Source of the DNA: Hymenobacter fodinae
GTDB taxonomy: Bacteria > Bacteroidota > Bacteroidia > Cytophagales > Hymenobacteraceae
DNA length: 64,000 nt
Assembly: GCF_004745825.1 (NCBI RefSeq)
Contig: NZ_SRLA01000001.1
Span: 1,426,001 to 1,490,000 of the forward strand
Reading direction: 5' to 3'
The notes beneath the pieces are model-generated. The model saw only the letters and a list, made by a program, of their open reading frames with translations. It was not told where the DNA came from and ran no database searches. This document shows positions 14,073 to 34,413 of this stretch, in pieces; positions within the stretch are counted from its first letter, which is position 1, and each line of letters opens with the position of its first letter. The position numbers were made by a program, and so were the translations under genes.

Positions 14073-14654
14073 ATGAAACACTTGTCCGGACTCCTTCACA
14101 AGCTGACTGCCGTAGCGGCTGTAGCCGTAGCTCTAACCAGCTGTAACCGTGCTGAATACGCCATGCTGCCCAAGACTGCTTCTGCCTACCACGGCACCCA
14201 GCGCGCTACCATCGTGACGCCAGCCCCTGCTGCTGCTCCCGTGGTTGACCAAGCTGTTGTAGCTAGCACTCCGGCAACTGCTCCTGCCGAAACGGCTCCT
14301 GCTGCAGTTGCTCAGCCTGCTCCCGCCTCAGCCCCAGCTACCACTGAGCGTGCCGCTGTTGCTACTGCTCCTGCCAAAGCGCCTACCGCAGCTCCCAAGC
14401 TGACGCTGGCTCAAAAGGCACTGGTGCGCAGCATCGCTAAAAAAGCCGACAAGCTCGCGGCTAAAGCGCAAGTGAACAAGAAGTCGGAAGTTGCCTCTAA
14501 GGAAGACGCTAACGCTATCAGCCGTAACATCAAGCTCGGTATCGTGCTGCTGCTGGTAGGTATTCTGGTTGGTCTCATCATTCCAATCCTCGGTACCGTA
14601 ATTGCCATTATCGGTATCGTGTTCATCGTACTAGGCCTGCTCGACGAAGTATAA
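14073..14654 (+). CDS. Ala/Pro-rich lipoprotein with paired C-terminal hydrophobic helices
   Basis: 193 residues. A lipoprotein signal (AVAAVAVALTSC, Cys near residue 24) is followed by an Ala/Pro/Thr-rich linker (about residues 45-110), a Lys/Ala-rich helix (ALVRSIAKKADKLAAKAQ) and two adjacent hydrophobic segments at the C-terminus (IKLGIVLLLVGILVGLIIPI and GTVIAIIGIVFIVLGLL). The product would be anchored by lipid at one end and by a helical hairpin at the other, possibly bridging envelope layers. I do not recognise a named family. The gene at 14855 has the same architecture, so the two look like diverged tandem copies. A strong terminator follows. Coding is well supported by signal, hairpin and third-position GC/T preference. 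Confidence 0.8.
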   Translation: MKHLSGLLHKLTAVAAVAVALTSCNRAEYAMLPKTASAYHGTQRATIVTPAPAAAPVVDQAVVASTPATAPAETAPAAVAQPAPASAPATTERAAVATAPAKAPTAAPKLTLAQKALVRSIAKKADKLAAKAQVNKKSEVASKEDANAISRNIKLGIVLLLVGILVGLIIPILGTVIAIIGIVFIVLGLLDEV

Positions 14655-14678
14655 GCCTACTGCTTTTTACCTAATCAA

Positions 14679-14722
14679 AACCACCCCAATTGCGCAGGCA
14701 GTTGGGGTGGTTTGTTTTTTTA
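14679..14722 (+). terminator. Intrinsic terminator
   Basis: AACCACCCCAA (14679-14689) pairs with TTGGGGTGGTT (14702-14712), with a 12-nt loop and a T-rich tail of TTTG followed by seven T. It ends the lipoprotein gene at 14073-14654. Confidence 0.85.
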
Positions 14723-14854
14723 AGCTGCGCTATATAGTTCGTTTCTTATTCTATCTTGCTCGGGCTATTTCCCGCCTATCGTTATGCCGCACTGCTACGC
14801 AGCGTTTTTAGAAGGTAACGTGTGCAATTTCCCTTCACCTATTCTTTTCGGATT

Positions 14855-15397
14855 ATGAGTAAGTACTATTTGACACCGGCTAGCAGCCTGATTGGGCTTA
14901 GCGTCTGCCTGCTCGCCAGTTGTCAGACTACACATTCGGCACTGCCGGCTGGCGGTGGCTTTAATTCTGTTGCTGCAGCGCCAGTAGCGGCTAGGCCAGT
15001 ACCGGAAGAGCCCGCAGCCCTTGTTGCTTCTGTTTCCGAGCAGCCGACCTTGCCAGCTGCTTCAAACCCGCAAAGGGAGCGTGTCGAAGATATCGGAAGG
15101 GGTGAGGGCAGCCCGCATTACTCGCTGCGTCCGGCTACTGGCCTACAAACAAGCGTGCCCGATACACTGCCAGCAAAGCAACCCGAAGCCCGCCGTGAGT
15201 TTGGGGTTACGCAAATAGCACACATTGGAGGAGGCTTACTGGTCTTAAGCGGTGGCGCATCCGTTATTAATGGCCTGAACTCAGACAGCACAGGGTATTA
15301 TCCTTTGGCGGCCATTGGCTTCGGGATAATATTGGCCTTGATAGGTGGTGCTATGCTTCTCTTTAAAGGAAAAACAGCCCATCGGCGCCCGAAGTAG
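14855..15397 (+). CDS. Lipoprotein with paired C-terminal hydrophobic helices (tandem relative of preceding gene)
   Basis: 180 residues from the ATG at 14855; a GTG at 14822 is in frame but would place the lipoprotein signal (SLIGLSVCLLASC) too far inside. After the lipid Cys near residue 24 comes an Ala/Pro/Glu-rich spacer (about residues 30-105), then two hydrophobic stretches (IAHIGGGLLVLSGGASVI and YYPLAAIGFGIILALIGGAMLLF) and a short basic tail (KGKTAHRRPK). This mirrors the protein encoded just upstream although direct sequence identity is low. No function is known to me. It ends at a hairpin made of an inverted pair of the GGCCTAG repeat. Confidence 0.78.
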   Translation: MSKYYLTPASSLIGLSVCLLASCQTTHSALPAGGGFNSVAAAPVAARPVPEEPAALVASVSEQPTLPAASNPQRERVEDIGRGEGSPHYSLRPATGLQTSVPDTLPAKQPEARREFGVTQIAHIGGGLLVLSGGASVINGLNSDSTGYYPLAAIGFGIILALIGGAMLLFKGKTAHRRPK

Positions 15398-15424
15398 GCC
15401 AAACAATACGTCTTGAGTGTAAAC

Positions 15425-15464
15425 AAAGTGGCCTAGCCTATCTCATCGATGGCTAGGCCACTTT
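15425..15464. terminator. Hairpin built from an inverted pair of GGCCTAG repeats
   Basis: AAAGTGGCCTAGCC (15425-15438) pairs perfectly over 14 bp with GGCTAGGCCACTTT (15451-15464), with a 12-nt loop, between convergent genes (lipoprotein and priA). Only short T-runs follow, so termination would rely on the stem. The use of an inverted pair of the window's iterated motif as a terminator resembles paired DNA uptake sequences in Neisseria and Pasteurellaceae. Confidence 0.75.
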
Positions 15465-15468
15465 GGCG

Positions 15469-18078
15469 TTACATCGGATCTACATCGGCTGCAATGCGGG
15501 CCTGCTTAAAATCCTTATGGTCGCGTACTAGGTTGATGGACTCCAAAATGTCAGCCTTCGCTGACCGCAGCACGGTATGCTCCCGGCTGAGCTTGATGGT
15601 GATTTCCTGCAGGTAAAAGTTACGAATCCGGAAGATGTACGGCGCTTCCGGTCCGAGCACTGCCTCGCGGCCCAACCGGTCAACTAATTCCTGGGTAAGC
15701 ATGATGGCAGCCCGCTCGGCCGCTACTGGGTCTACGTGTTTTACCGTGAGGCGAATCACGCGCATGAAAGGGGGGTAACCATGCTCGCGGCGTTGCAGAA
15801 TCTCGTACTCGTAGAATTCGAGGTAATCATTGCGAATTACCTTATCGAAGATAACCTGCTGCGGGTCGCCCGTCTGGATAATTACTTTGCCCTTCTTACC
15901 CTTGCGTCCCGCCCGCCCGCTCACCTGCACAAACATTTGGAAGGCTCGCTCATGGGCCCGAAAATCGGGGTAATGGATGATACTGTCGGCATTGATGATA
16001 CCTACCAGACTCACGTTAGCGAAATCTAGCCCTTTAGTCACCATTTGGGTGCCCACCAGCACGTTGGTTGTCTGCTTCTCGAAGTCAGAAATAATCTGCT
16101 GATAGGAGTTCTTGGCGCGAGTAGTATCCAGGTCCATGCGCTGCACGCTGGCAGCAGGCAGCATAATCTTCAGATCGTCTTCCAGCTTCTCCGTGCCAAA
16201 CCCCACCGTTTTGATGTTGCGGGAGCCGCAGGCCGGACACTCCACTGGCATTCGGTCATGGTAACCGCAGTAGTGGCAGCGCAGCTCGTGGGCATGTTTA
16301 TGGTAGCTAAGGCTTACAGCGCAGTTCTTACACTTCGGTATCCAGCCGCAGTCGAGGCAATTGATGAAAGGAGCGTAGCCGCGGCGGTTCTGAAACAGAA
16401 TTACCTGCTCCTTCGCGGCCAGCTTGCGCTCCATTTCCTGCATCAGCTCCGGCGTGAAATGGTTGAGCATGGTTTTCTGCTCCCTTGACTTTCGGGTATC
16501 TACTAGCTCAATCTCCGGCAAGCCTGCCTCCCCAAAGCGCTTAGTCAACGAAACGAGGCCATAGCGTCCGGTGCGGGTCTGGTAGTAGGTTTCTACAGAA
16601 GGGGTAGCTGAGCCCAAAAGCGTTTTTGCGCCCTGGAAGTTGGCCATCATCAGGGCCACTTCCCGGGCATTATAGCGGGGGGCGGGGTCATACTGCTTGT
16701 AACTCGACTCGTGCTCCTCGTCAACAATCAGCAGCGCTAGATTATCGAAGGGCAGAAACACCGACGACCGAACACCCACTACCACCTGAAAGCGCCCCGA
16801 GAGCACGCCATTCCAGACCTCTACCCGCTCATTATCGGAGAACTTGGAGTGGTACACCCCCAACCTAGAGCCAAACACGCGCATCAGGCGCGTTACTATT
16901 TGGGCCGTCAGGGCAATTTCAGGTAGCAGATACAGCACTTGCCCTCCACCTTCCAGTGCCTGCTGAATCAGGTTGATGTAGATTTCCGTTTTGCCCGCAC
17001 CCGTTACGCCGTGGAGCAGCACAATATCCTTCTCCTGAAACTGCCGCATGATGTCGTCGTGCGCCTCTTGCTGGGCTTCACTGAGGGTGAAGTGCATATT
17101 GGCAGCTTCGTCATCCTCCATCGGAAAGCGCGACACAATAACATCAAACTGCTCTAGTACGCCATTTTTGATTAGCGTATTCACCGCCGAAGGGGAAAGG
17201 TGAGGGGCGCTGGTTAGCGCCGCTTTCTCCATCCCCTTGTGGTTGGCATGCTCATTCTGATACACGGGCACCCGTTGCAGGTAGCGCATGAGCACATCGA
17301 GCTGCTTGGCTTTGGAAGCTAGCTGCGTAAATAGCTGCTCGAGAGCCGCCTCAGCTACATAGTGGTGAGCCAGGCGCACCTTCTTCACCACTTTGGGCGA
17401 GTACTTATCCGACAGGTGCTCAAACAGAAACACCACGTCCTTCTGCATCAACGACTTGATGTACTTATGGAAGGAGGCAATGCCGAGCAAGTCGCCCACC
17501 TCCGTAAAGGTCATGGATTTGCCTTCCTCACCCGTGCTAAGCGCATCTACGATCTTCTGCTCTTGCTCACTCAGCGGGTAAGGGTTAGTATCGACCTCGA
17601 ATGCCGGATGCAGCTGCACTCGGCTCTCTGAGCTAAGCTTGAGGGCGGCAGGCAATGCCGCATTAATCACCTCGCCCAACGTGCAGAGGTAATAGTCGGC
17701 CATCCAGCGAAACAGCTTTAGCTGGGGCTGGGTAACCACCGGGGCATCATCGATAAACTCCAGGATGTACTTCGCCTGATAGTTGGCGGGCGGCGTCTCG
17801 TGTACGGCAGCCACAATGCAGCTCAGCGTTTTTTTGGCGCCAAACTGCACAATTACCCGGCCCCCAATCACCACTTGGTCGTTTAGTTCAAAGGGGACGC
17901 GGTAGGTGTACAGCTTGGGCAGCGGCAACGGCAGAATCACGTCCGCGAAGAGCGTAACGCGGTCGGCGGCCGGTTCTGGCTGCGGCTGAACAAAGTCAAA
18001 CGTGAGGCTCAAAAGAAGTCGGAAACAGAATGCGAACAGTAAAGATAAATGGCCGGGCTCAATGAAGTAACGAGCCAT
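15469..18078 (-). CDS. priA: Primosomal replication restart helicase PriA
   Basis: 869 residues from the only upstream ATG (18078). The first 22 residues are oddly hydrophobic for a cytoplasmic helicase, so translation may really start at the TTG at 18012 (847 residues). The DNA-binding N-domain begins at TLFADVILPLPLPKLYTYRVP. The helicase has Walker A HGVTGAGKTE (Lys363), DEEH (Asp453), then the PriA zinc-binding block of paired cysteines (CLDCGW, CKNC, CHYCG, CPACG; from about residue 574) and motif VI QVSGRAGRKGKKG. PriA recognises abandoned forks and reloads the replicative helicase. It appears to be a single-gene unit between two hairpin or palindrome elements. Confidence 0.95.
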   Translation of the reverse strand: MARYFIEPGHLSLLFAFCFRLLLSLTFDFVQPQPEPAADRVTLFADVILPLPLPKLYTYRVPFELNDQVVIGGRVIVQFGAKKTLSCIVAAVHETPPANYQAKYILEFIDDAPVVTQPQLKLFRWMADYYLCTLGEVINAALPAALKLSSESRVQLHPAFEVDTNPYPLSEQEQKIVDALSTGEEGKSMTFTEVGDLLGIASFHKYIKSLMQKDVVFLFEHLSDKYSPKVVKKVRLAHHYVAEAALEQLFTQLASKAKQLDVLMRYLQRVPVYQNEHANHKGMEKAALTSAPHLSPSAVNTLIKNGVLEQFDVIVSRFPMEDDEAANMHFTLSEAQQEAHDDIMRQFQEKDIVLLHGVTGAGKTEIYINLIQQALEGGGQVLYLLPEIALTAQIVTRLMRVFGSRLGVYHSKFSDNERVEVWNGVLSGRFQVVVGVRSSVFLPFDNLALLIVDEEHESSYKQYDPAPRYNAREVALMMANFQGAKTLLGSATPSVETYYQTRTGRYGLVSLTKRFGEAGLPEIELVDTRKSREQKTMLNHFTPELMQEMERKLAAKEQVILFQNRRGYAPFINCLDCGWIPKCKNCAVSLSYHKHAHELRCHYCGYHDRMPVECPACGSRNIKTVGFGTEKLEDDLKIMLPAASVQRMDLDTTRAKNSYQQIISDFEKQTTNVLVGTQMVTKGLDFANVSLVGIINADSIIHYPDFRAHERAFQMFVQVSGRAGRKGKKGKVIIQTGDPQQVIFDKVIRNDYLEFYEYEILQRREHGYPPFMRVIRLTVKHVDPVAAERAAIMLTQELVDRLGREAVLGPEAPYIFRIRNFYLQEITIKLSREHTVLRSAKADILESINLVRDHKDFKQARIAADVDPM

Positions 18079-18147: not shown

Positions 18148-18163
18148 AGTGGCCTAGGCCACT
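18148..18163. repeat. Perfect 16-bp palindrome AGTGGCCTAGGCCACT
   Basis: Two fused copies of the extended iterated motif (GTGGCCTAG and its complement) form a perfect 16-bp palindrome in the 118-bp gap between priA and the downstream-lying thioredoxin-domain gene. It could be a protein-binding site in the priA upstream region or a cruciform; it has no loop, so it is not a typical terminator. Confidence 0.7.
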
Positions 18164-20325: not shown

Positions 20326-22716
20326 CTACTCACTAGCTTCCGTCCCCTGGTCAGGCGCTGGTTTGCGGCGAGGTGGCCTAGCGCGTTTAGGTGCGGGGGC
20401 CGTGGCACCCTCCGGCGTCGGAGTTGGCTCTGGTGCTGCTTTCTTGCGGCTACGGGATGGTTTAGGAGCTGATTCTGCGGCGCTCGTCGTTAAAGTAGGA
20501 GTTGGCTCCGGCGCAACAGTCGAAGCCGTTTTCCGGGCAGCGCGCTTTTTGGCAGGAGGTGCTGTCGGTGGTGACGAAGTTTCTGACGAGTTTTCCTCTA
20601 CGGGCGGAGTGACTGCTGTCGGCGCTGGAGCCGCAGAAGGTTTCCGTGGTGCCCGCTTTGGTAGTGAGGGGGGAGGCACTACCGGAGCCTCGGAAGGCTC
20701 CAACGGTGCGGAGGCAGCAGGTGCCACAGTCTCCACGGGCGTTTCAGCACTAGGAGGGGTGGGCTGCGCTGCAGTGGCCGCCGATTCGGCAGCTGCGGCC
20801 ACTCGGTTCTGGGCTGCTTTCCCGCGGTTTCGACCCGCTCCACCGCGGCTGCGCGAACGGCCTTTTGAAGCGTTAGGGATAGGTGCCTCTTCTGGGGCAA
20901 CAGCTTCTGGAGTACCTGTCTCCGAAACTTCTGGTACCGTCATGGGGGCCACTTCCGCTGCAAGGGGTTGAGTCTCCACAGTGGGCTGCTCAGTTTCTAT
21001 GCTAGCTTCCGCTTCCTCCGCTGGCGGCACCGCATACAGCGCTTGGCGGTTGCCACGGCGAGGCTCTCGGTCTTGTTGCCGTCCTTTCCGCTGCGGACGG
21101 TTACGCCGCCGCGAGGGTTGTTCGGTCGGTTCAGCAGTTTCTGGAGCATCGGCTACTACTGACGGATCTTCTGCTACTGGTAGTAGTTCTTCGCTACTAG
21201 ATTTAATTGCCTCTGGTGCGCTAGGCCTATCCGTTTTTCCGAATAACTCAGCTTCTGTAATGTAAGTAATGCCATCAGCAATTGGGGCGTCCTCCGAGGA
21301 AGTAGCCGTTTCAGCGCCAGATTCTATGTCGGACTGGCCTACTGGTGTATCAACGGCCGTCACGGCCAAAGCAGCTTCGGCCTCTGCAGCTAGGCGGGCC
21401 GCCTTGCGCTTACTACGCTTAGCCCCACCGCGTGACCGGCGCTTTTTCTTGCGTACAGGTGTTTCTGCCTCTGAAATGCTCCCATCGGCTTCCTCCCCAG
21501 GTTCTTCTTCCTGCGCATATTCCAAAGTGGCCCCTGAGTACGCCGACTCGTAGGCCTCGTCTGGATCAGCTTCTGCTGCCTGTTGCTCGTCAGACGTTTC
21601 CGCTTCTATGAGTAGGCCACTACCTTGGCTAAGCAATTCGGCGCGGGCCTGGTCAGCCTCCTGGGGTTGATCTTCTTCTAAGAAATCGTCCTCGTCCTCA
21701 TCCTCGTCGGGTTCAGGAGTTGGTGGGGGAGGGGGGAGCGGAAGCGAAGCAAGTTCTCTTTCTACGTGCAGAAGCTCCATGCGCACATCAGCTTGCGCAC
21801 TCAGGCGTTGCAGGCGTGCTAGGGTGCCTTCTAAAAACTGGCGGTGCTCTGATGCGGCACTGTGCAGTGGGCGGTGAGCCAGCGCCTGCCTAATGCCTTC
21901 CCATTCTTTCTTGAATCGGCCAAAAGCCGTGTCAAAATATGTACGTGTGAACCGTTCCCAGATATAGTTCTCGGCTACATCGGAGGGATGGAGCATGTCT
22001 GATGCATAAAAGCGGTAGTCCCGCAAATCATCCATCAGCAACTCGTACGCCGGGAAGTAAGACACGTCAGGCAGTAACTCACTAAGGAAGTGGCACGCCA
22101 CGCGCAACATGGATTTACTAACCGAGCTGAGTGGTAACGTTTCTTTCAGGTGACGCACGGGGCTCACCGTTAATATGAAGCGTAAACGTGGGTTAATGCG
22201 TCGTAAGTACGCGTGCGTTTCTGCTATAGCCGCAATAATTTCATCGGCAGTCAGCAGTTCTTTTTCGAATTTATCCGCGGGTACCTTATGACAGTTGCTA
22301 ATGATTTCTTCGGTTTCGCGTAGGCGGTAGGCATAAGCTGTACCAAGCGTCAACACCACTGCATCAGCGGTAGCCAGAAATACCCCTGTTTCCCGCACAA
22401 TACTTTGTATGTGCTGGAGTAAGTCAACGGGTGATTCTGCCCCAAGTGTCGCGTGCAAGTCATAGCTCTGCCAGCGGCCTCGCGCTTCCACTACATGCTG
22501 CTGCCAATCCATGTCTTCGCCCGCAGCAGCACGAAGGAGTTTGCACGCTGAAACAGGGTTGAACACGGTACCAAAAGGGTTTACCAGTGTCGCCACCTTA
22601 AAATCTGCTAATCGGTTTCCAATGGAATCCGAAAAGCAGGAACCAATTGTCAACACCCGCGCGGAGTGCGGCAGTTGTTGCGGATGAGGCGTAAGTGGTA
22701 ATTCAGTTCGAAACAT
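20326..22716 (-). CDS. GSCFA-domain protein with very long charged, low-complexity C-terminal tail
   Basis: 796 residues from the ATG at 22716; a TTG ten codons earlier is less likely. Residues 1 to about 290 form a GSCFA domain, an SGNH/GDSL-like fold named for its GSCF[AS] motif, here GSCFSD at 25-30, with VNPFGTVFNP, VLTLGTAYAYR, LTVSPVRH and DMLHPSD as other conserved blocks. Substrates of GSCFA proteins are unknown. From about residue 310 the protein changes to alternating acidic (EPDEDEDEDDFLEEDQ) and Arg/Lys-rich clusters (RKKKRRSRGGAKRSKRKAAR, SRRRNRPQRKGRQQ, KGRSRSRGGAGRNRGKAA) set in Pro/Ala/Glu/Thr-rich sequence to the end. Such tails resemble disordered RNA-binding tails. The fusion is unusual; no frameshift is seen, and a 16-bp-stem terminator follows. 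Confidence 0.85.
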   Translation of the reverse strand: MFRTELPLTPHPQQLPHSARVLTIGSCFSDSIGNRLADFKVATLVNPFGTVFNPVSACKLLRAAAGEDMDWQQHVVEARGRWQSYDLHATLGAESPVDLLQHIQSIVRETGVFLATADAVVLTLGTAYAYRLRETEEIISNCHKVPADKFEKELLTADEIIAAIAETHAYLRRINPRLRFILTVSPVRHLKETLPLSSVSKSMLRVACHFLSELLPDVSYFPAYELLMDDLRDYRFYASDMLHPSDVAENYIWERFTRTYFDTAFGRFKKEWEGIRQALAHRPLHSAASEHRQFLEGTLARLQRLSAQADVRMELLHVERELASLPLPPPPPTPEPDEDEDEDDFLEEDQPQEADQARAELLSQGSGLLIEAETSDEQQAAEADPDEAYESAYSGATLEYAQEEEPGEEADGSISEAETPVRKKKRRSRGGAKRSKRKAARLAAEAEAALAVTAVDTPVGQSDIESGAETATSSEDAPIADGITYITEAELFGKTDRPSAPEAIKSSSEELLPVAEDPSVVADAPETAEPTEQPSRRRNRPQRKGRQQDREPRRGNRQALYAVPPAEEAEASIETEQPTVETQPLAAEVAPMTVPEVSETGTPEAVAPEEAPIPNASKGRSRSRGGAGRNRGKAAQNRVAAAAESAATAAQPTPPSAETPVETVAPAASAPLEPSEAPVVPPPSLPKRAPRKPSAAPAPTAVTPPVEENSSETSSPPTAPPAKKRAARKTASTVAPEPTPTLTTSAAESAPKPSRSRKKAAPEPTPTPEGATAPAPKRARPPRRKPAPDQGTEASE

Positions 22717-22886
22717 TTCTCCTTGATACGGCCCTAATACGGCCAACGGACAGGCAACCTACTTAACATCGTTGGTTCGACCAAAAACCCGCTAAAGCAG
22801 CGGCGGGAATGGGTTAACTAACCTCCCAATGTAAAATAGCACTATTTGAGGCACCTTAGTATAAACTCCAAGACAACCTCAGCCAG

Positions 22887-22920
22887 AAAAAAAGCCCGGC
22901 TACGCAAGCAGCCGGGCTTT
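22887..22920 (-). terminator. Terminator of the ribosomal protein operon
   Basis: On the reverse strand AAAGCCCGGCT pairs with AGCCGGGCTTT (22891-22901 with 22910-22920) and is followed by a run of seven T (22893-22887). It lies about 20 bp after rplI. Confidence 0.9.
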
Positions 22921-22941
22921 CTTATACGCAAGCGGAATAGC

Positions 22942-23385
22942 TTATTCAGCTACTACGTTGAAGCGTACCTTGTGTTTTACTTCACGGTGCAGGTCAACCG
23001 AAGCCGTGTACTCACCTACTGCGCTGGGCTCCGAGTCAAACGAGAGACGCTTACGGTCTACCTCGATGCCCTTAGCTTTCAGTGCGTCGGCCAGCTGAAG
23101 CGTGGTCACACGACCGAAGATACGGCCGCTTTCACCCACTTTAGCTGGAATATCCAGAACTACATCACCGATTTTGTCAGCTATTGCCTGAGCATCAGCT
23201 TTCACTTTCTCGGCTTTGTGAGCAGCCTGACGAATGTTCTCGGCTACAATTTTCTTGTTGGTTTTGTCGGCTAGGATAGCCAGACCCTGCGGGAGCAGGT
23301 AGTTACGGCCGTAGCCAGGCTTTACAGTAACGGTGTCGTTCTTGTAACCCAGGCCTTTAACGTCGTCTTTCAGAATTACTTCCAT
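22942..23385 (-). CDS. rplI: 50S ribosomal protein L9
   Basis: 147 residues, the usual length. The N-terminal domain has the L9 signature MEVILKDDVKGLGYKNDTVTVKPGYGRNYLLPQGLA, then the long linking helix (AHKAEKVKADAQAIADKIG) and the C-terminal RNA-binding domain (GRIFGRVTTLQLADAL, VDLHREVKHKVRFNVVAE). It binds 23S rRNA at the base of the L1 stalk. It is the last gene of rpsF-rpsR-rplI, 95 bp after rpsR, and a strong terminator follows. Confidence 0.98.
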   Translation of the reverse strand: MEVILKDDVKGLGYKNDTVTVKPGYGRNYLLPQGLAILADKTNKKIVAENIRQAAHKAEKVKADAQAIADKIGDVVLDIPAKVGESGRIFGRVTTLQLADALKAKGIEVDRKRLSFDSEPSAVGEYTASVDLHREVKHKVRFNVVAE

Positions 23386-23480
23386 GTCTTTATAGAGTTG
23401 CTAGCTGCAAATTGTTGGTTGATGATCAGCTACAAGTAGCCCGACTAGCAACGCACAACTGACAACTAAACACTGACAAC

Positions 23481-23732
23481 TTATTTCAACGAGTCGGTTA
23501 CGTAAGGCATTAGCGCCAGGTGACGGGCTTTTGCCACAGCCTGAGCTACTTTACGCTGGAACTTCAGGCTAGTACCCGTGATACGACGGGGCAGGATGCG
23601 ACCCTGCTCGTTCACAAACTTCAGCAGGAAGTTCGGGTCTTTGTAGTCTACGTACTTAATGCCGTTCTTTTTGAAGCGGCAGTATTTCTTGCGCGTATCC
23701 TGCTTGTGGATTTTTTCGTTGGCGAGGCTCAT
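23481..23732 (-). CDS. rpsR: 30S ribosomal protein S18
   Basis: 83 residues. The S18 core KYCRFKKNGIKYVDYKDPNF, GRILPRRITGTS and KFQRKVAQAVAKARHLALMPY is complete. It partners with S6 in the 30S platform. The gene starts 9 bp after rpsF, implying translational coupling. No ssb gene lies between rpsF and rpsR, as is usual in Bacteroidota and unlike Escherichia coli or Bacillus. Confidence 0.98.
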   Translation of the reverse strand: MSLANEKIHKQDTRKKYCRFKKNGIKYVDYKDPNFLLKFVNEQGRILPRRITGTSLKFQRKVAQAVAKARHLALMPYVTDSLK

Positions 23733-23741
23733 CTTTCTAAC

Positions 23742-24116
23742 TTACTGGGCTACGGCTTCCGACTGTTTTGCTTTCTGCTGGTTCATCTCGCCCTTACGAC
23801 GACGCTCGCCGTAAGCTACGGCGTGCTTGTCCAGAACGGTAGTCAGGAAGCGGATTACACGCTCATCGCGGCGGAAAGCCAGCTCCAGCGTGTCCACGAT
23901 GTTGCCCGAACCGGTGAACTCCACGAGGAAGTAGTAGCCAGTGGACTTTTTCTGAATTGGGTACGCCAGTTTCTTGAGGCCCCAAGCTTCAGTGTTGATA
24001 ATGTCGGCGCTATTTTCCTTAAGCACCTGGGTGAACTTCTCGACCGTCTCTTGCACTTGGCTCTCGTTCAGCACGGGAGTCAGAATGAAGACCGTCTCGT
24101 AATTTCTTACTTCCAT
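23742..24116 (-). CDS. rpsF: 30S ribosomal protein S6
   Basis: 124 residues beginning [19 protein letters not shown], with the ferredoxin-like S6 fold motifs [23 protein letters not shown] and [11 protein letters not shown], and a basic, disordered C-terminus ([16 protein letters not shown]). It binds S18 in the small subunit. First gene of the operon, about 40 bp downstream of an exact Bacteroidota -7 element. Confidence 0.98.
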
Positions 24117-24157
24117 TACGACGGGGTGAAAATTGTGTGAAAAACTAAATGAGGGGG

Positions 24158-24165
24158 CAAAGGTA
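24158..24165 (-). promoter_or_regulatory. Predicted -7 element of the rpsF operon
   Basis: Reverse strand TACCTTTG, an exact TAnnTTTG, 41 bp before the rpsF ATG, giving a leader of about 35 nt. No clear TTG is seen at -33. Confidence 0.5.
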
Positions 24166-24452
24166 ACACGTTTTTAGCTCGGTGCTATACTATAATGATA
24201 AATAATTCATCATTGTCTTTCTAGCAAGGAATTGATAGTCAGTAGGCAAAACTTTCTTCTTCGTTGTAGAGTTGCAAATGAGGTACCTTATATAATAGGT
24301 GTACACCGAGAAAATAGGAGTAGGAACGAAGCTGGAGCGTCTTGGAGTATAAAGTGGGCTAAGTGGATGAATGTTGTAGAAGTAGCACCACTGAAGCCTT
24401 TTTTAGACGAATTCTAGACTACTGTCAAAGGGCGAAAATTAGCAGAAGCGGG

Positions 24453-24483
24453 TTTGTTCTCTGCGTTTCCCGACCTACATTTG
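24453..24483 (+). promoter_or_regulatory. Bacteroidota-type promoter of the act-cox operon
   Basis: TTTG (24453-24456), a 19-bp spacer, and TACATTTG (24476-24483) match both halves of the Bacteroidota -33/-7 consensus (TTTG, TAnnTTTG) with the standard spacing. Transcription should start near 24490, about 40 nt before the actA ATG at 24531. This is the best promoter in the window. Confidence 0.75.
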
Positions 24484-24530
24484 TGGCCTTGGAGCACCCC
24501 CGAGTTTCTTTTTCCCCGTCAAATTGTGCT

Positions 24531-25877
24531 ATGAATAGCATCCGACTTCGTTCTCTTCCCCATCTCCTTCTTGCTCTGTTTCTGACGCTTGCAGCCTACG
24601 GTCAATCCTTGGCTCAAACGGTAGGCTCGGCTCCGGCCGTGAGTAAGGAAGGCGTAGCGCCCGACGCTACGGCTGGCGCAACTGCTGCTACAGCCACTGC
24701 ACCCGCCGCCGGTGGCGGTGATGCCGCCGCTATTGCGGCTGGCGATGCCTTGTTTAAAGGTAACTGTGCCCAGTGCCACGCCGTGAACGACGTAGTAGTA
24801 GGTCCGGCTCTGGCTGGAATTACCAAACGCCGGCCCATGTCTTGGATCATTCCATGGGTAAAGAACTCCAGTAAAGTAGTTGCCAGTGGCGATGAATACG
24901 CTGTTAAGCTATTCAACCAGTATGGTAAGCAGCAGATGCCTAGCTTCCAGCTTTCTGATCAAGAAGTTACGTCCATCGTAGCTTGGGTCACTTCGCAAGA
25001 AGGAAAAGCAACTGGTCCTACCGATAATGCAAACGGGAACAATATTGCTCCTGGTGAGGGCAGCAAAACTCCTGGTGATGATGCAGCTGCCGGTGCAGGA
25101 AGCTACGTGAACGTGCTTCTCATTGTGTTGGTAGTAGTACTGATTGTACTGGTGGTAACGCTGGTTATCATCGCTAACATCATGAAGGATGTGCTCCGTG
25201 GCCGCAAAGATCTTGATGGTCGTGACGTGGAGATTATTGAACAGCGCTTCGACTACTCGAAAATCTACAAGTCTACTGCTGTTCGGGCAATTGTCGGAGT
25301 AGTATTCGTTCTGGCAGTATTATATGAGTCGGTACAAGGGGCTATGGGCGTAGGCCTGCAGCAAGGCTACCAGCCTACCCAACCTATTGCCTTCTCGCAC
25401 AAGTTGCACGCTGGCGAAAACCAAATCAACTGTGCATACTGCCATACGTCGGTATACAAGAGCAAGTCTGCCAACATTCCCTCGGCCAACATCTGTATGA
25501 ACTGCCACTCGCAGGTGAAAACGGAGTCGCCCGAAATCAAAAAGATCTACCGCGCTATCGAGCGTAAGCAGCCTATCCAGTGGGTTCGGATTCACAACCT
25601 ACCTGACCTTGCTTACTTCAACCACTCTCAGCACACACAAGTAGGTGGTATTGAGTGTCAGACCTGCCACGGCCCGATCCAGAATATGGAAGTAGTATAC
25701 CAGTACTCTCCGCTGACCATGGGCTGGTGCATTAACTGCCACCGCGAAACTCCTCTGAACACGAAAGGCAATGCCTACTACGATAATCTTGTGAAGCTCC
25801 ATGACACCAAGAATGGTGCAGTTCCCTTCACAGTATCGTCTAACGGCGGCACGGAGTGCTCGAAGTGCCACTACTAA
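24531..25877 (+). CDS. actA: Alternative complex III subunit ActA: multiheme cytochrome c with fused monoheme domain
   Basis: 448 residues from the ATG at 24531, which opens a signal peptide (LLLALFLTLAAYGQSLAQ); the frame is open 56 codons further upstream but reads as non-coding. A monoheme cytochrome c domain comes first (CAQCH at residue 79, Met ligand region QQMPSFQL), then a membrane helix (VNVLLIVLVVVLIVLVVTLVIIANI, about 190-215), a second hydrophobic segment (VRAIVGVVFVLAVLYESV), and a pentaheme domain with CAYCH 301, CMNCH 322, CQTCH 376, CINCH 400 and CSKCH 443. Six hemes in total. ActA carries electrons within the quinol:acceptor oxidoreductase that replaces the bc1 complex. First gene of the actABCDEF-cox cluster; a hairpin separates it from actB. 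Confidence 0.93.
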   Translation: MNSIRLRSLPHLLLALFLTLAAYGQSLAQTVGSAPAVSKEGVAPDATAGATAATATAPAAGGGDAAAIAAGDALFKGNCAQCHAVNDVVVGPALAGITKRRPMSWIIPWVKNSSKVVASGDEYAVKLFNQYGKQQMPSFQLSDQEVTSIVAWVTSQEGKATGPTDNANGNNIAPGEGSKTPGDDAAAGAGSYVNVLLIVLVVVLIVLVVTLVIIANIMKDVLRGRKDLDGRDVEIIEQRFDYSKIYKSTAVRAIVGVVFVLAVLYESVQGAMGVGLQQGYQPTQPIAFSHKLHAGENQINCAYCHTSVYKSKSANIPSANICMNCHSQVKTESPEIKKIYRAIERKQPIQWVRIHNLPDLAYFNHSQHTQVGGIECQTCHGPIQNMEVVYQYSPLTMGWCINCHRETPLNTKGNAYYDNLVKLHDTKNGAVPFTVSSNGGTECSKCHY

Positions 25878-25892
25878 CAGGTCAATAAGATC

Positions 25893-25934
25893 TCAGGAGC
25901 CTAGGCCGTTGCAAGCAACAGTCTAGGCTCCTGA
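25893..25934 (+). other. Intercistronic hairpin between actA and actB
   Basis: TCAGGAGCCTAG (25893-25904) pairs perfectly over 12 bp with CTAGGCTCCTGA (25923-25934); inside, GTTGC/GCAAC (25908-25912 with 25915-25919) extends the stem past a small internal loop. There is no T-run, so it is probably not a full terminator. It may stabilise or process the mRNA and set the actA:actB ratio. Confidence 0.65.
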
Positions 25935-26036
25935 ATCAAGAAGCCTTAAGCCTTTAACTAAGCCTTAAACTTGCGGACTAAGCGGGGCCACATAGCCGAA
26001 ACCCCAAGTCCCCAAGACCCTAAGTCCCCTAAACAA

Positions 26037-29000
26037 ATGCAAGAGTCGCCTAAGTACTGGAAGGGAATTGAGGAACTGGAGAACTCACCGGAGTTCATGA
26101 AGAATGCGCTCACCGAGTTTGCAGACTTCCTGCCGGTGAAAGAATCTCATGGTGCTTCGGATGCCACGGTGGCCCCCCGCCGCGACTTTCTCAAGCTCAT
26201 GGGCTTCGGCATTGCCGCCGCAACCCTCGCCAGCTGCGAAACCCCCATCAGAAAGGCAATTCCATACCTCAATAAGCCAGAGGAGGTAGACCCAGGAATT
26301 GCGAACTTTTATGCCTCCACGTTTTTTATCGGCCAGGACTACAACAGCATCCTGGTTAAAACTCGTGAAGGTCGCCCAATCAAGTTTGAAGGCAACCCTG
26401 AATCACCCATCACACGTGGCGGCTTATCAGCTCGTGCTCAGGCTGCAGTTTTAAGCCTGTATGATGGTGGTCGTCTGCAGCACTTTGCTATTAAGAAAGG
26501 CAATGAGCACGTTAAGACTGACCGCGACCAGGTTGACCAAGAGGTGCGCGCTGCTCTAGCTAGCACTACGGGCAAGATTGCCATTGTGTCCCCCACTATC
26601 ATCAGCCCTTCTACGAAGAAGGTTATTGCTGAATTTGCTTCCCGCTTCCCAAGCACGGAGCACGTGATGTATGATGTAAACTCTGCATCAGGCTTACTAC
26701 AGGCCAATGGTGGAGTTTTGCCTTCCTACGACTTCAGCAAAGCTCGTACTATCGTAAGTGTTGGCGCTGACTTCCTAGGTACCTGGCTGTCACCAGTAGA
26801 GTACGCTCAGCAGTATATCACGAACCGTAAGGTATCGAGCGAGAAGCGTGAGATGTCGCGCCACTATCAGTTTGAGTCGGCGCTGACTTTGACGGGTTCT
26901 AACGCTGACGTACGGGTAGCCGTGAAGCCTTCTATGCAAGGCGAAGTGGTACTGGCTCTATACAATGCAATTGTAGGAGGCGACGCTGCGTCAAGCTACA
27001 ACGACGAAAGCAAGCAGCTTGCCAAGGCTGTCCGGGACCTGAAAAATGCTCGCGGTGCAGCATTAGTTGTAGCTGGCTCTAATGACCCAGCGGTACAAAC
27101 CCTAGTTGCTGCAATTAACCAGACATTGGGTTCTACAGCAGTAGATACTACTGCTCCTTCCATGATTCGTCAGGGAGATGACGCTCGCATGGCTCGTCTC
27201 ATTCGTGAGATGAACGCCGGTCAAGTAGGGGCAGTAATCTTCTACAATGCTAACCCTGCGTACGATCATCCCCTAGCTGAGCAAGTTGTTAATGGCCTCA
27301 AGAAGGTTAAGACTACTATTTCGCTCAACGACCGTCTTGACGAAACTGGTATCCTATGCACATACGCGGCACCGGACCACAACTTCCTCGAGTCTTGGAA
27401 CGACTATGAGCCGAAGCGTGGCTCGTTGAGCTTAGCTCAACCAGTTATTACGCCCCTGTTTGCTACTCGTCAAGCGCAAGACACGCTGTTGACTTGGGCA
27501 GGAAGCCCAACTACCTATTATAACTACCTTCGCAATCAGTGGAAGGGGGTGTTAGGCGGTAATTTCCAGAAAGCTTGGGATAAGGCTGTACACGATGGGG
27601 TAGCAGTTGGTACTGCTTCGCCTGCTCCGGTGGCTCAAGTGGCTCAGCCACTTGACGTGAATGCAGCTATTTCGGCTATTAAGTCAGCGCCTAAGCCTTC
27701 AGGTATTGAACTTACTATCTACGAGAAGGTAGGTATTGGTAATGGCGCTAACATTTACGCCAACAACCCTTGGCTTCAGGAACTACCTGACCCTGTATCA
27801 AAAGCAACTTGGGGTAACTATGTTGCTGTATCCCGCAAAATGGCTGTTGAGCGTAAGTGGGAGCAAGGTGATGTAGTAGAAGTAAGTGCAAATGATAAGA
27901 CGATTCAGTTGCCAGTGCTTATTCAGCCAGGTCAGGCTGATGGGGCTGTAAGCATCGCCTTAGGATATGGCCGCACCAATGCGGGCAAAGTAGCCAATGG
28001 TGTAGGCGCAAACGTATTGCCCCTCGCTTCTATGCGCAACGATGGTATTCTCTATACCAACGTTGTAAACATCAAGGAGACGGACGCAAAATCACCTATT
28101 GCTCAGACCCAGACGCACCATACAATCATGGACCGCAAGGCCGTGGTGCAAGAGGCTTCTTTGGCTGATTATATCAAAGATCCTAAGGATGTAACTGAGT
28201 ACGAGACTATCTCTACTCCTGAAGGCCCGCAGAAGCCTAATAAAGTCTCTTTGTGGCAGGATTATGAGTACAAGAACCACCACTGGGGTATGGTTATCGA
28301 CCTCAACTCATGCATTGGCTGTGGCTCATGTGTAGTTGGGTGTCAGGTAGAAAATAACGTAGCAGTAGTTGGTAAGCAGGAAGTTCTCAACCGTCGCGAA
28401 ATGCACTGGTTACGTATTGACCGCTATTACAGCTCAGACGCGCATAAAGAAGACTTCGAAACGAAGGGCAAGTTGGATACTTACGAGGCGATGGAGCATC
28501 CTTCGGACAACCCGAAGGTGATTTTCCAACCTATGTTGTGCCAGCATTGCAACCACGCTCCCTGCGAGACGGTGTGCCCCGTATTGGCTACCACGCACAG
28601 TTCGGAAGGTCTGAACCAAATGACCTACAACCGTTGCGTTGGTACCCGCTACTGCGCTAACAACTGCCCGTACAAAGTGCGTCGTTTCAACTGGTTCTCG
28701 TACTACTCTAACGAGAAGTTCGAAACGGTAAATGGCCACATGTTCACGGACCTAGGCCGGATGGTATTGAACCCCGACGTAACAGTACGTGCTCGTGGTG
28801 TGATGGAGAAGTGCTCCTTCTGCGTGCAGCGGATTCAGCTCGGCAAACTGGAAGCCAAAAAGCAGAAGCGCCGTCCGCAGGATGGTGAAATTGTCTCGGC
28901 TTGTGCCCAGTCCTGTCCCACTCAGGCTATTGTATTTGGCGATATGCGTGACCCCAACTCCCGCATTTCGCAGATCATGCGCCGCGAAGATGGCGAGCGT

Positions 29001-29093
29001 GCTTTCCACGTACTCGACACTATCAACACGCAGCCGAACATCACGTATCTGACCAAGATCCGTAACACGGAATCAGAAGTTCGTAACGCCTAG
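26037..29093 (+). CDS. actB: Alternative complex III subunit ActB: molybdopterin-oxidoreductase-like iron-sulfur protein
   Basis: 1018 residues from the ATG at 26037; an upstream TTG at 25971 is less likely. A twin-arginine-like motif RRDFLKLMGFGIAAATLASC sits at residues 48-67, well inside a family-typical N-terminal extension that begins with KYWKGIEELENSPEF. The long middle part is a molybdopterin-oxidoreductase-like fold that in ActB has lost the cofactor. The C-terminal part is a ferredoxin-type domain with four cysteine clusters (CIGCGSCVVGCQ from Cys759, CQHCNHAPCETVCP, CVGTRYCANNCP, CSFCVQ with CAQSCP), expected to carry [4Fe-4S] and [3Fe-4S] centres. It passes electrons from the quinol site on ActC to the ActA hemes. 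actC follows after 76 bp. Confidence 0.95.
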   Translation: MQESPKYWKGIEELENSPEFMKNALTEFADFLPVKESHGASDATVAPRRDFLKLMGFGIAAATLASCETPIRKAIPYLNKPEEVDPGIANFYASTFFIGQDYNSILVKTREGRPIKFEGNPESPITRGGLSARAQAAVLSLYDGGRLQHFAIKKGNEHVKTDRDQVDQEVRAALASTTGKIAIVSPTIISPSTKKVIAEFASRFPSTEHVMYDVNSASGLLQANGGVLPSYDFSKARTIVSVGADFLGTWLSPVEYAQQYITNRKVSSEKREMSRHYQFESALTLTGSNADVRVAVKPSMQGEVVLALYNAIVGGDAASSYNDESKQLAKAVRDLKNARGAALVVAGSNDPAVQTLVAAINQTLGSTAVDTTAPSMIRQGDDARMARLIREMNAGQVGAVIFYNANPAYDHPLAEQVVNGLKKVKTTISLNDRLDETGILCTYAAPDHNFLESWNDYEPKRGSLSLAQPVITPLFATRQAQDTLLTWAGSPTTYYNYLRNQWKGVLGGNFQKAWDKAVHDGVAVGTASPAPVAQVAQPLDVNAAISAIKSAPKPSGIELTIYEKVGIGNGANIYANNPWLQELPDPVSKATWGNYVAVSRKMAVERKWEQGDVVEVSANDKTIQLPVLIQPGQADGAVSIALGYGRTNAGKVANGVGANVLPLASMRNDGILYTNVVNIKETDAKSPIAQTQTHHTIMDRKAVVQEASLADYIKDPKDVTEYETISTPEGPQKPNKVSLWQDYEYKNHHWGMVIDLNSCIGCGSCVVGCQVENNVAVVGKQEVLNRREMHWLRIDRYYSSDAHKEDFETKGKLDTYEAMEHPSDNPKVIFQPMLCQHCNHAPCETVCPVLATTHSSEGLNQMTYNRCVGTRYCANNCPYKVRRFNWFSYYSNEKFETVNGHMFTDLGRMVLNPDVTVRARGVMEKCSFCVQRIQLGKLEAKKQKRRPQDGEIVSACAQSCPTQAIVFGDMRDPNSRISQIMRREDGERAFHVLDTINTQPNITYLTKIRNTESEVRNA

Positions 29094-29169
29094 AAACAGA
29101 GCCATAGGGGAGTGCCATGTGGCCTAGCGCTAAATAGCCCTTCCCGTTTACTCCTTTAAGTCTAAACAT

Positions 29170-30630
29170 ATGCAGCACGTATCGCCTGTACGGGAGCCGC
29201 TCGTAACCGGGGGGAAAACGTACCACGACGTCACCCAGGACGTGTGTCGCCAGGTAGAAGCCGCCCCGAATGTTCGGTGGATGGCCGCCCTGAGCGTCGC
29301 CCTTGTTCTCCTCGGCGTATTCTTCTATTCCGTGTACCGGACCTTGTGGTACGGTATAGGTGAATGGGGCCTTAACAAAACCGTAGGTTGGGCCTGGGAC
29401 ATCACCAACTTCGTGTGGTGGGTAGGTATCGGCCACGCTGGTACGCTTATCTCAGCAGTTCTGCTGCTGTTCCGTCAAAAGTGGCGGACTTCAATTAACC
29501 GCGCTGCAGAAGCCATGACGATCTTCGCTGTAATCTGCGCCGCAATGTTCCCTGTACTTCACATGGGCCGTCCTTGGCTCGCTTACTGGGTATTCCCTTT
29601 CCAGAACACATTCGGTTCTCTGTGGGTGAACTTCAACTCGCCTCTGTTGTGGGACGTGTTTGCTATTTCGACTTACTTCACTGTATCTCTGGTATTCTGG
29701 TACACGGGTCTAGTTCCTGACTTTGCTACTATCCGTGACCGCGCAAAAGGTCCGATTGCAAAAGTGGCCTACTCGCTATTGAGCATGGGCTGGAAGGGTT
29801 CGGCAAAACATTGGTCACGCTACGAAACAGTCTCGCTGATTTTGGCCGGTGTTTCTACTCCTCTGGTACTTTCGGTACACACCATCGTATCGATGGACTT
29901 TGCTACCTCTGTAGTTCCAGGTTGGCACACCACTATCTTCCCTCCCTACTTCGTAGCAGGTGCTATCTTCTCGGGTTTCGCAATGGTACTCACCCTGATG
30001 TTGATCACTCGGGTAGTATTTAAACTGGAGGACTACATCACTATTGAGCACATCGCCCTCATGAATAAAATCATGATGGTAACGGGTTCTATTGTGGGTG
30101 TGGCTTACATCACAGAGTTCTTTATTGCTTGGTACTCTCAGGTTGAATTCGAGCAGTATGCTTTCATCAACCGTGCTACTGGTCCTTACTGGTGGGCTTA
30201 TTGGTCAATGATGACCTGCAACGTAATCACGCCACAGTTGGTGTGGATTCGTCGGGTACGTTACAGCATTCCGCTGACATTCATCCTGTCGATCATCGTG
30301 AACATCGGTATGTGGTTCGAGCGTTTCGTAATTATCGTTACCTCGCTGCACCGTGACTATCTGCCCTCAAGCTGGGTAATGTTCTCGCCCTCTATTATCG
30401 ATATCGGCATTTATGTAGGTACGATTGGTTTGTTTTTCACTCTTTTCCTATTGTTTGCCAAGTTCTTCCCGGTAATCAACATGGCGGAAGTGAAGTCGGT
30501 ACTGAAGTACACTGTGGATAACGGCCCAACGTACACAGGCCACGATCCTCACCATGCTCCAACTACACATCAACCCTCCACCCACGGGGTTCCGGCTTCG
30601 GCTCCTGTAAACTACGATAAGCATGACTAA
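29170..30630 (+). CDS. actC: Alternative complex III subunit ActC: NrfD-like membrane quinol-oxidising subunit
   Basis: 486 residues, polytopic, NrfD/PsrC family. Successive hydrophobic helices start at about residue 38 ([20 protein letters not shown]) and continue to residue 445, including [21 protein letters not shown] and [20 protein letters not shown], which are typical for the quinone-binding bundle. The C-terminus is hydrophilic and His-rich ([11 protein letters not shown]). In the complex it faces ActB on the periplasmic side and oxidises menaquinol. It overlaps actD by 8 bp, which indicates translational coupling. Confidence 0.95.
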
Positions 30631-31147
30631 GCGCTTCGCCCTCGGCATCTTCGACGACGAAGACGTGCTGTTGCACGCTGTTGAGAACGTCCGTGAAGCG
30701 GGCGTCAAGATCTACGAGGTATTTACCCCGTTTCCAATCCACGGTATTGACGACGCGCTAGGCATTGAGCGTTCACGCTTGCCAATTGCTGCCTTCTTTT
30801 TCGGCCTGACCGGATTGTGCTTTGCACTGTGGTTACAGATCTATACGCTAGGTTTTGACTGGCCTATGATCATTGGTGGTAAACCCCATATTGCTCTGCC
30901 TGCCTTCATCCCAGTGTCTTTCGAATTAACGGTATTCTTCTGCTGCCATGGTATGGTGATTACCTTCTATACCATAAGTAAGCTTTACCCACGTTGGAAA
31001 ACTCCTGTACTGGATGTACGCTCAACTGATGACAAGTTTGTAATGGCCATTGAGGTAAACGAAAATACCGACATGGTAAAACTGTCGCAGCTGCTGCGTG
31101 ACAACGGTGCTTCTGAGGTGAACCAAAAAGAAATGTCTAAGTTCTAA
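30623..31147 (+). CDS. actD: Alternative complex III subunit ActD (DUF3341)
   Basis: 174 residues with the DUF3341 start [42 protein letters not shown], then two membrane helices ([21 protein letters not shown] and [26 protein letters not shown]). ActD has no cofactor and stabilises the ActB/ActC/ActF interface. The ATG lies inside the end of actC, and its TAA stop shares a base with the ATG of actE (TAATG), so the three genes are tightly coupled. Confidence 0.95.
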
Positions 31148-31881
31148 TGACGCATTCGCTGAAAATAACTCTGCAAGCGTCGGCGGTTCTGCTGGCATCG
31201 GTGTTCACCACCGCTTGCAACCGCGCCGATGACCCAGGAGTGGAGTACGCTCCGGAGATGTACTATTCCATCCCCTACGAGCCATTAAAACAGGAAAGCA
31301 CCAACAAGGTGAACCCGATGGGCCTCAACATGCGAGTACCTGCTATTGGTACGGTTCCTCGCGGCAAGCTCAACTACTTCACGCATATTGGTAAGGACAG
31401 CGTTGGGATTGCAGAAAAGACTCTGCGTGAGCCATACGCTTATACCAAAGAGAATCTGGCCGAAGGGCAGATTCTTTATACCCGTAACTGTCAGCACTGC
31501 CACGGCGAGCAAGGTGATGGTCAGGGTCCAGTAGGAGTAAAGTTTAAGGGTGTGCCTAACTACTCTACTGGTGCTTACAAGACCATGAATGAAGGCCATA
31601 TCTACCACGTCATTCAGTGGGGCAAAGGCCGTATGATGCCACACGGCTCACAGGTCAATCCTGAAGAACGGTGGAAGATTGCTATGTACGTGCGTGTGTT
31701 ACAACTTGGTAAAGGCCCTGACGGGTTAACTGACCTGTTGGCATCCAAAGGGGTTTCTGCCACCGACTCAGCTCAAACTACTGAAGCTGTGAACCAAGGC
31801 CCAGTAGAAGAGGCACAGGCAGACAAAGGCTCTACTACCCCAGCACAAGGTGATAAAGCACGTAACGGAACGGCGAACTAA
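31147..31881 (+). CDS. actE: Alternative complex III subunit ActE: lipoprotein monoheme cytochrome c
   Basis: 244 residues. A lipoprotein signal (ASAVLLASVFTTAC, Cys near residue 25) is followed by the ActE-specific stretch YYSIPYEPL and a class I cytochrome c domain with one CQHCH heme site at residue 115 and a Met-ligand loop WGKGRMMPHGSQV. The tail after residue 195 is Gln/Thr/Ala-rich and looks flexible. ActE is the mobile-looking electron carrier subunit between ActA and the oxidase. It begins on the actD stop codon and is 6 bp from actF. Confidence 0.95.
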   Translation: MTHSLKITLQASAVLLASVFTTACNRADDPGVEYAPEMYYSIPYEPLKQESTNKVNPMGLNMRVPAIGTVPRGKLNYFTHIGKDSVGIAEKTLREPYAYTKENLAEGQILYTRNCQHCHGEQGDGQGPVGVKFKGVPNYSTGAYKTMNEGHIYHVIQWGKGRMMPHGSQVNPEERWKIAMYVRVLQLGKGPDGLTDLLASKGVSATDSAQTTEAVNQGPVEEAQADKGSTTPAQGDKARNGTAN

Positions 31882-31887
31882 CTCAAT

Positions 31888-33228: not shown

Positions 33229-33320
33229 TCATAGACATGAGCATTGAGAGGTGAGGGGAAGAGCGTTATAGCTAGCCTCTCACCTCAACTCTCTTACAGT
33301 TTTCAGCTTACCCTTATCTC

Positions 33321-34388: not shown

Positions 34389-34413
34389 TTTACTATAAAC
34401 GCACGCTTCTCAT

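Follow-up and report, generated by a model that had tools for sequence, protein, structure and literature searches.

The hairpin between the convergent genes for a small predicted lipoprotein and for PriA in Hymenobacter fodinae is built from two opposite copies of a word, SCTAGGCCAST, which is iterated thousands of times in this genome (G000; 6.08 Mb, 15 contigs) and in three relatives of the same clade. The word marks these genomes throughout, is specific to the clade and is maintained there. By analogy, and as a guess, its likeliest role would be that of an uptake-type self-recognition word, read in these Bacteroidota by a route that does without type IV pili. On its own the hairpin is a modest finding, and the word behind it is more significant: with thousands of copies maintained in one small clade, few in the other 116 genomes searched in the genus and a different word in five, it offers a natural comparison by which to address the long-standing question of how iterated genome words arise and are kept.

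The hairpin and its place

The hairpin lies in a contiguous 64,000-nt stretch of the H. fodinae genome (the window), to which the positions below refer. Its perfect arms, read from the letters, span 15 bp, CAAAGTGGCCTAGCC at 15424-15438 and GGCTAGGCCACTTTG at 15451-15465, and enclose a 12-nt loop (15439-15450) with a short apical ATC/GAT helix in the predicted fold. The left arm holds a copy of the motif GGCTAGGCCACT on the minus strand and the right arm a copy on the plus strand. As GGCTAGGCCAC, the copies occupy 15428-15438 (minus) and 15451-15461 (plus), for a shuffle mean of 0.08 (100 shuffles, one of which also has two copies). An initial annotation of this DNA had described two motif copies in inverted order, pairing over 14 bp between the convergent genes; order, pairing and place are all recovered here, and the length is corrected to 15 bp. 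The lipoprotein gene (14822-15397, plus strand, start uncertain) has its stop 26 nt before the hairpin, and priA (15469-18078, minus strand, N-terminal start uncertain) has its stop 3 nt from it on the other strand. The lipoprotein ORF carries a lipobox, LLASC (by eye), and matches no Pfam family, while the priA product contains the PriA 3'BD, Zn ribbon and C domains (Pfam). The gap between the two stops is 71 bp, and the hairpin is, by eye, the sole sizeable structure in it. A third, lone TAGGCCA copy lies at 15395-15401 (plus) and supplies the lipoprotein gene with its stop codon, TAG.

Folded as RNA, the 40-nt element reaches -27.4 kcal/mol against a shuffle mean of -8.2 (z -7.9; 0 of 200 shuffles as stable), and its 55-nt context gives z of -7.5 and -9.5 for the two strands. 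It is thus a stable GC-rich hairpin soon after a stop codon, as an intrinsic terminator is expected to be, and its stem is flanked by TTTGG on the plus strand and TTTGTTT on the minus strand, a short T-tract of three T and then G. A terminator scan of the window, which accepts loops of 3-8 and requires five or more T in 8, does not list it. Elsewhere the scan lists a terminator-like hairpin with a TTTTTTT tail (14678-14713), 3' of the neighbouring gene at 14073-14654.

The hairpin is probably a shared two-way transcription terminator of the intrinsic type. The lipoprotein (plus) and priA (minus) transcripts would terminate at one common GC-rich hairpin of 15 bp, with a short U-tract closing the arms (UUUGG one way, UUUGUUU the other), and we infer that RNA polymerase would be stopped there. 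Two opposing copies of a word that is present about once per kb for another reason could have provided the stem at little cost, and selection would then have lengthened and retained this stem.

In one relative, G025, the arms are kept at the same place (AAAGTGGCCTAGC / GGCTAGGCCACTTT) around a new loop. The apical helix is CGTC/GACG there and ATC/GAT here, different letters that pair in both, a covariation resting on two sequences only, and the two folds are equally stable (-30.3 and -30.9 kcal/mol). The gap after priA in G119 holds a different hairpin, with TTTTT flanks and without TAGGCC, and no such hairpin is seen by eye after priA in G111. Among samples of the four word-bearing genomes, seven other inverted pairs can be traced to a relative and none is kept as the same pair (for one, the relative has two copies in another arrangement), so that the focal pair is unusual in being kept.

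Inverted pairs as a class

Throughout G000 (spacers 1-31), 79 arms-out and 66 arms-in pairs give 145 inverted pairs against 61 direct ones, about 5.9 standard deviations from the equal numbers expected if strands are independent (hand calculation); smaller samples of G025, G119 and G111 hold five arms-out, four arms-in and three direct pairs. With site density fixed within each region class, a null for 624 kb yields 6.7 arms-out pairs for 9 observed (46 of 200 randomisations as high) and 6.8 arms-in pairs for 6 observed, and 13.4 direct pairs for only 6 observed (199 of 200 randomisations at or above this number). An excess of inverted pairs over site density is therefore not found, and a deficit of direct pairs is found instead. 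About half of the sampled G000 bases were picked for holding pairs; the pair null and the densities given below use the other 624 kb, which includes the 64-kb window, itself picked beforehand. Gene calling relied on an in-house ORF and Markov script, which missed the lipoprotein gene, and the densities, the pair null and the convergent-gap and site-conservation counts carry some mislabelled bases; for the placement of pairs in 1.37 Mb and for the test of site direction, the gene was added by hand.

Since the density of the motif predicts 6.66 arms-out pairs per 624 kb, or about 0.7 per 64 kb, the pairing alone is unsurprising. The two focal copies could accordingly lie in opposite order by accident, given how dense the motif is, and form a hairpin that has no function; an expectation of about one arms-out pair per 94 kb and the lack of conservation of the seven other traceable pairs speak for this. 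We consider it unlikely, given the perfect 15-bp arms, their retention in G025 despite the changed loop, and a lengthening of the arms that affects intergenic pairs as a class but not coding ones. Perfect arms of at least 14 bp occur in 10 of 41 intergenic arms-out pairs (0.42 expected) and 5 of 31 arms-in pairs (0.46 expected), together 15 of 72 (0.9 expected), and the mean intergenic arm is 11.5 bp in the former and 11.2 bp in the latter, against 9.0 in the null for both. Coding pairs have mean arms of 8.5 (null 8.4, n=12) and 8.0 (null 8.4, n=18), and none of the 12 or the 18 reaches 14 bp, though just 0.1 would be expected to. Arm length beyond chance indicates that part of the intergenic pairs are real hairpins. 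With coding and intergenic pairs mixed, the inward extension of the arms is clear for arms-out pairs (1.65 against 0.90) and is not so for arms-in pairs (0.98 against 0.83, p 0.14), in 49 pairs per order among the matches listed (50 of 79 arms-out, 50 of 66 arms-in).

In 1.37 Mb of G000, counting all pairs there (53 arms-out, 49 arms-in, 46 direct; most C10-C12 pairs lie outside), 72 of 102 inverted pairs are intergenic, compared with 16 of 46 direct pairs (Fisher p 6e-5). The initial annotation had proposed to ask whether inverted pairs sit preferentially between convergent genes or after stop codons, and had named as contrary evidence that they be no more frequent downstream of genes than elsewhere. 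That outcome did not arise, and inverted pairs lie more often in intergenic DNA, with apparently little further preference for convergent gaps, as these hold 21 of the 72 intergenic pairs (29%) and, of 607 single sites between genes in those stretches, 142 (23%).

The pair might instead act as DNA, an inverted double site for a motif-reading factor (an uptake receptor, a recombination protein or a nucleoid protein), with the hairpin incidental. Each inverted order (79 and 66) exceeds half of the 61 direct pairs, as for a dyad site, and the T-tails of the intergenic pairs are weak, averaging 1.5-2.0 T of 5 in arms-out pairs and 0.4-1.0 in arms-in pairs; arms lengthened well beyond the motif, in intergenic pairs only, and the small number of pairs among some six thousand TAGGCCAS sites nevertheless make this reading quite improbable. 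A terminator role, as predicted from sequence, is likely for the focal hairpin and for a subset of the intergenic pairs.

The word is not, on the other hand, the usual source of terminators. Among 67 convergent gaps of up to 700 nt in G000, 41 contain a stem of at least 9 bp, of which 5 hold TAGGCC (2 as an inverted pair) and 36 do not; the focal gap is outside the 67, as the gene caller missed the lipoprotein gene, and would add one pair. Pooling the four genomes, a stem is present in 69 of 109 convergent gaps and an inverted pair in 4 of the 69. The remaining stems often resemble AAAAAGCCC...GGGCTTTTT, with AAAAA/TTTTT flanks and without the motif. Inverted pairs as the standard terminator here are accordingly rejected, convergent-gap hairpins being mostly other sequences; with an inverted pair in a few per cent of them, the word appears to be occasionally re-used rather than a standard stem. 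The annotated view of paired motifs as terminators is supported in that inverted pairs outnumber direct ones, are mostly intergenic and have lengthened arms there, and fails as a general rule. The focal hairpin is like the ordinary two-way convergent-gap hairpins of the clade in having a long stem with at most one mismatch, and unlike the many that have AAAAA...TTTTT flanks. Convergent gaps of the four genomes also contain stems of up to 38 bp, with at most one mismatch, around ordinary terminators, one of which bears motif copies at its base in mirror order (G025 sample, gap 20806-20873). Single sites show no preference for pointing to convergent-gap hairpins or away from them (44 toward, 34 away, p 0.31).

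Form, range and maintenance of the word

Most of the top over-represented words in the window are derivatives of TAGGCC, which itself occurs 127 times in 64 kb. The intergenic consensus, pooled from 377 sites in four genomes, is SCTAGGCCAST, with C at 0.76 before TAG, the second S as C (0.61) or G (0.31), and a terminal T at 0.68. STAGGCCAST occurs 3506 times in G000, 4028 times in G025, 2302 times in G111 and 3339 times in G119, against 17-119 copies in each of the other 116 of 120 Hymenobacter genomes and 16 copies of a reversed control word in G000. The annotated iteration of the motif is hence confirmed, and copies in thousands, far above chance, are as expected of an uptake word. PriA places the window in Hymenobacter. 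The four word-bearing genomes form one branch of a PriA tree of 37 chosen rows (92/92; 90% of 200 bootstrap trees), next to H. mucosus, whose 22.6-kb priA locus has 3 copies of STAGGCCAS, compared with 24 in H. wooponensis, a clade member with the same PriA as G119 in the tree.

Intergenic one-mismatch forms of TAGGCCAC are mostly within about twofold of expectation (small counts), with TAGGCCAG (102 vs 9.7 expected), TAGGCCTC (24 vs 6.5) and TAGGCCAT (14 vs 6.0) as exceptions. SCTAGGCCAST is asymmetric, which sets it apart from palindromic words of the HIP1 type, and the palindrome TAGGCCTA occurs 77 times against 644 TAGGCCAS in the same 624 kb of G000. Overlapping copies form palindromes such as TAGGCCTAGGCCTA and GTGGCCTAGGCCAC (window 37854-37867, 60715-60728 and 18149-18162).

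In the 624 kb of G000, TAGGCCAS is densest in convergent gaps (4.8 per kb), followed by tandem gaps (about 2), divergent gaps (1.5) and genes (0.82); overall its density is about 1 per kb, so that extrapolation from the 644 copies gives some six thousand sites in this genome. In the four genomes, sites peak at 0-50 nt after stops (4.9 per kb, vs 0.7-1.05 in the preceding 300 nt). Within genes, the motif lies on the strand opposite the coding strand in 470 cases and on the coding strand in 264 (samples of four genomes), a bias to be expected in part, since one frame cannot contain TAG. A motif-poor stretch of the window, 21619-35320, has 7 TAGGCC in 13.7 kb for about 27 expected at the window mean, and the proteins scanned in it (ribosomal L9, cytochrome c, Fe-S, NrfD and COX1) point to a set of conserved genes and not to obviously foreign DNA.

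Aligned coding sites from the window have remained intact at 24 of 43 positions in G025, 37 of 49 in G119 and 29 of 49 in G111, while any 7-mer is intact in 21-27%; retention in the clade is thus 56-76%, or 2.3-2.8 times background. Three species that lack the word keep 1, 3 and 3 of 10 coding sites each, for a background of 17-20%. Coding copies of the word, intact above background in the clade, are thus maintained there, be it by selection or by drive. For intergenic sites the picture of maintenance, judged from alignments, seems mixed: 8 of 12, 5 of 13 and 9 of 13 are intact in G025, G119 and G111 (background 19-33%), and in L037, a shorter stretch of the genome of G119, coding sites are intact in 13 of 15 cases and intergenic sites in none of 5.

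Possible functions of the word

Uptake words are known as DUS in Neisseria and USS in Haemophilus. A word of this kind, spread via preferred uptake and recombination, is a serious candidate here, if one that falls somewhat short of probable. It would account for thousands of STAGGCCAST in one four-genome clade and 17-119 in the other 116 genomes, for a TAGGCCAS density near 1 per kb that is highest between genes and after stops, and for coding sites kept well above background in the clade and near background in three outgroups. The ComEC channel, expected with an uptake word, is present in 15 of 15 genomes tested; as it is equally present in genomes without the word, it does not discriminate. 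No match to the type IV pilus ATPase profile PF00437 is found in G000, G025, G111 or G119, and 3 of 120 Hymenobacter genomes have one above the cut-off. A literature search found no Hymenobacter transformation data. Riemerella, also a member of the Bacteroidota, does transform, and according to the portion of PMC8459023 used here its transformation involves ComEC, DprA, ComF, RecA and proteins without known transformation homologues. Single-mismatch forms are described as common at lost DUS sites (PMC2397512, in the part that concerns them), which the intergenic one-mismatch forms of TAGGCCAC, mostly within about twofold of background, do not match.

The comparison with the pathogens drawn in the initial annotation holds for the pattern and does not extend to the proportion or to the machinery tested, the pilus ATPase; it is a resemblance, not membership. 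As in the DUS and USS systems, at least as set out in the sections of Kingsford 2007 (PMC1852404) drawn on here, a genome-wide word of about 10 nt is present about once per kb, close pairs in opposite orientation are favoured over same-strand pairs and are mostly intergenic, and some pairs form stems with A and T flanks. The same source gives the uptake word in about 55% of terminators in Neisseria and 16-29% in Pasteurellaceae. A large share of terminators formed by inverted pairs, expected of an uptake word on that precedent, is not seen here (2 of 41 hairpins in G000): the few per cent of convergent-gap hairpins in Hymenobacter contrast with the 16-55% of terminators there, the two figures being obtained by different methods. 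In further contrast to the systems as described in those sections, Hymenobacter has both inverted orders about equal, short T-tails, arms that extend beyond the word and no pilus ATPase found. Because the orders are about equal, the T-tails are short, the preference for convergent gaps is small, no PF00437 pilus ATPase is found and terminators with the word are a minority, 'uptake sequence' is a guess.

A by-product of DNA methylation and mismatch repair, on the model put forward for HIP1 by Elhai 2015 (PMC4390886, as far as the excerpt used here goes), is a doubtful alternative. Like cyanobacterial HIP1 and the alternate HIPs of that excerpt, the word has a density near 1 per kb, and other genomes of the genus have a different word, the palindromic ACCTAGGT. 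It is unlike HIP1, as portrayed there, in being mostly non-palindromic and strongly concentrated in the first 50 nt after stops, and in that no methyltransferase of three families is common to the four word-bearing genomes (PF00145 in 2 of 4, PF01555 in 1 of 4, PF02086 in 0 of 4). GGCC m5C methylation as a common cause is rejected, since two of the four genomes lack PF00145.

A Chi-like or chromosome-segregation site, read one way, would likewise be an asymmetric octamer to decamer found genome-wide. Of seven stretches of 64-200 kb, however, six show no strand bias and one has p 0.047, and the sites are concentrated between genes, leaving this reading very improbable.

A second word and other candidates

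Five other Hymenobacter genomes are rich in ACCTAGGT, with 3262 copies in G013, 1867 in G105, 1815 in G019, 492 in G070 and 450 in G086, while each of the other 115 has at most 60. Over 120 kb sampled from G013, the wider form reads ASCTAGST, with a post-stop peak of 3.0 per kb at 0-50 nt, compared with 0 to 0.43 per kb in the six bins that precede the stop. A 160-kb sample of G105 shows no clear post-stop peak (0.77 at 0-50 nt, and also 0.77 in the -300 bin). Both words contain CTAG and C/G-ambiguous (S) positions.

The second word in five genomes and the CTAG and S positions common to both words invite a bolder reading, which we offer tentatively and consider possible rather than likely. Hymenobacter would have a self-recognition word in dialects that differ by clade: SCTAGGCCAST in the clade studied here, ASCTAGST in other genomes and perhaps G/C-rich words elsewhere. 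The reader of these dialects would be an uptake or recombination system that works without type IV pili, and such DUS-like genome marking would have arisen separately from that of Neisseriaceae and Pasteurellaceae. Sites are concentrated after stops in the first clade and in G013, and not clearly so in G105. The focal hairpin might then be a secondary re-use of the word as a stem, by analogy with Neisseria. The DUS dialects of Neisseriaceae, in the part of Frye 2013 (PMC3630211) considered here, are comparable in that related species have variant words; they differ in that the two Hymenobacter words are not simple variants of each other and that a receptor is only hypothetical.

The literature search also found no iterated genome word of such kind for Bacteroidota and no Hymenobacter uptake sequence. 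To our knowledge, a DUS-like marking of the genome would be the first in this phylum.

Further words are possibly iterated in loci of about 22 kb, and some of these candidates may be terminator stems. They comprise AGGGCCCC in H. coccineus and H. nivis, CTACCCC or CCCTACCC in H. latericoloratus, H. sediminis, H. citatus and H. profundi, GCCCCCCA in H. qilianensis and two relatives, and AAGTACCC in Rhabdobacter.
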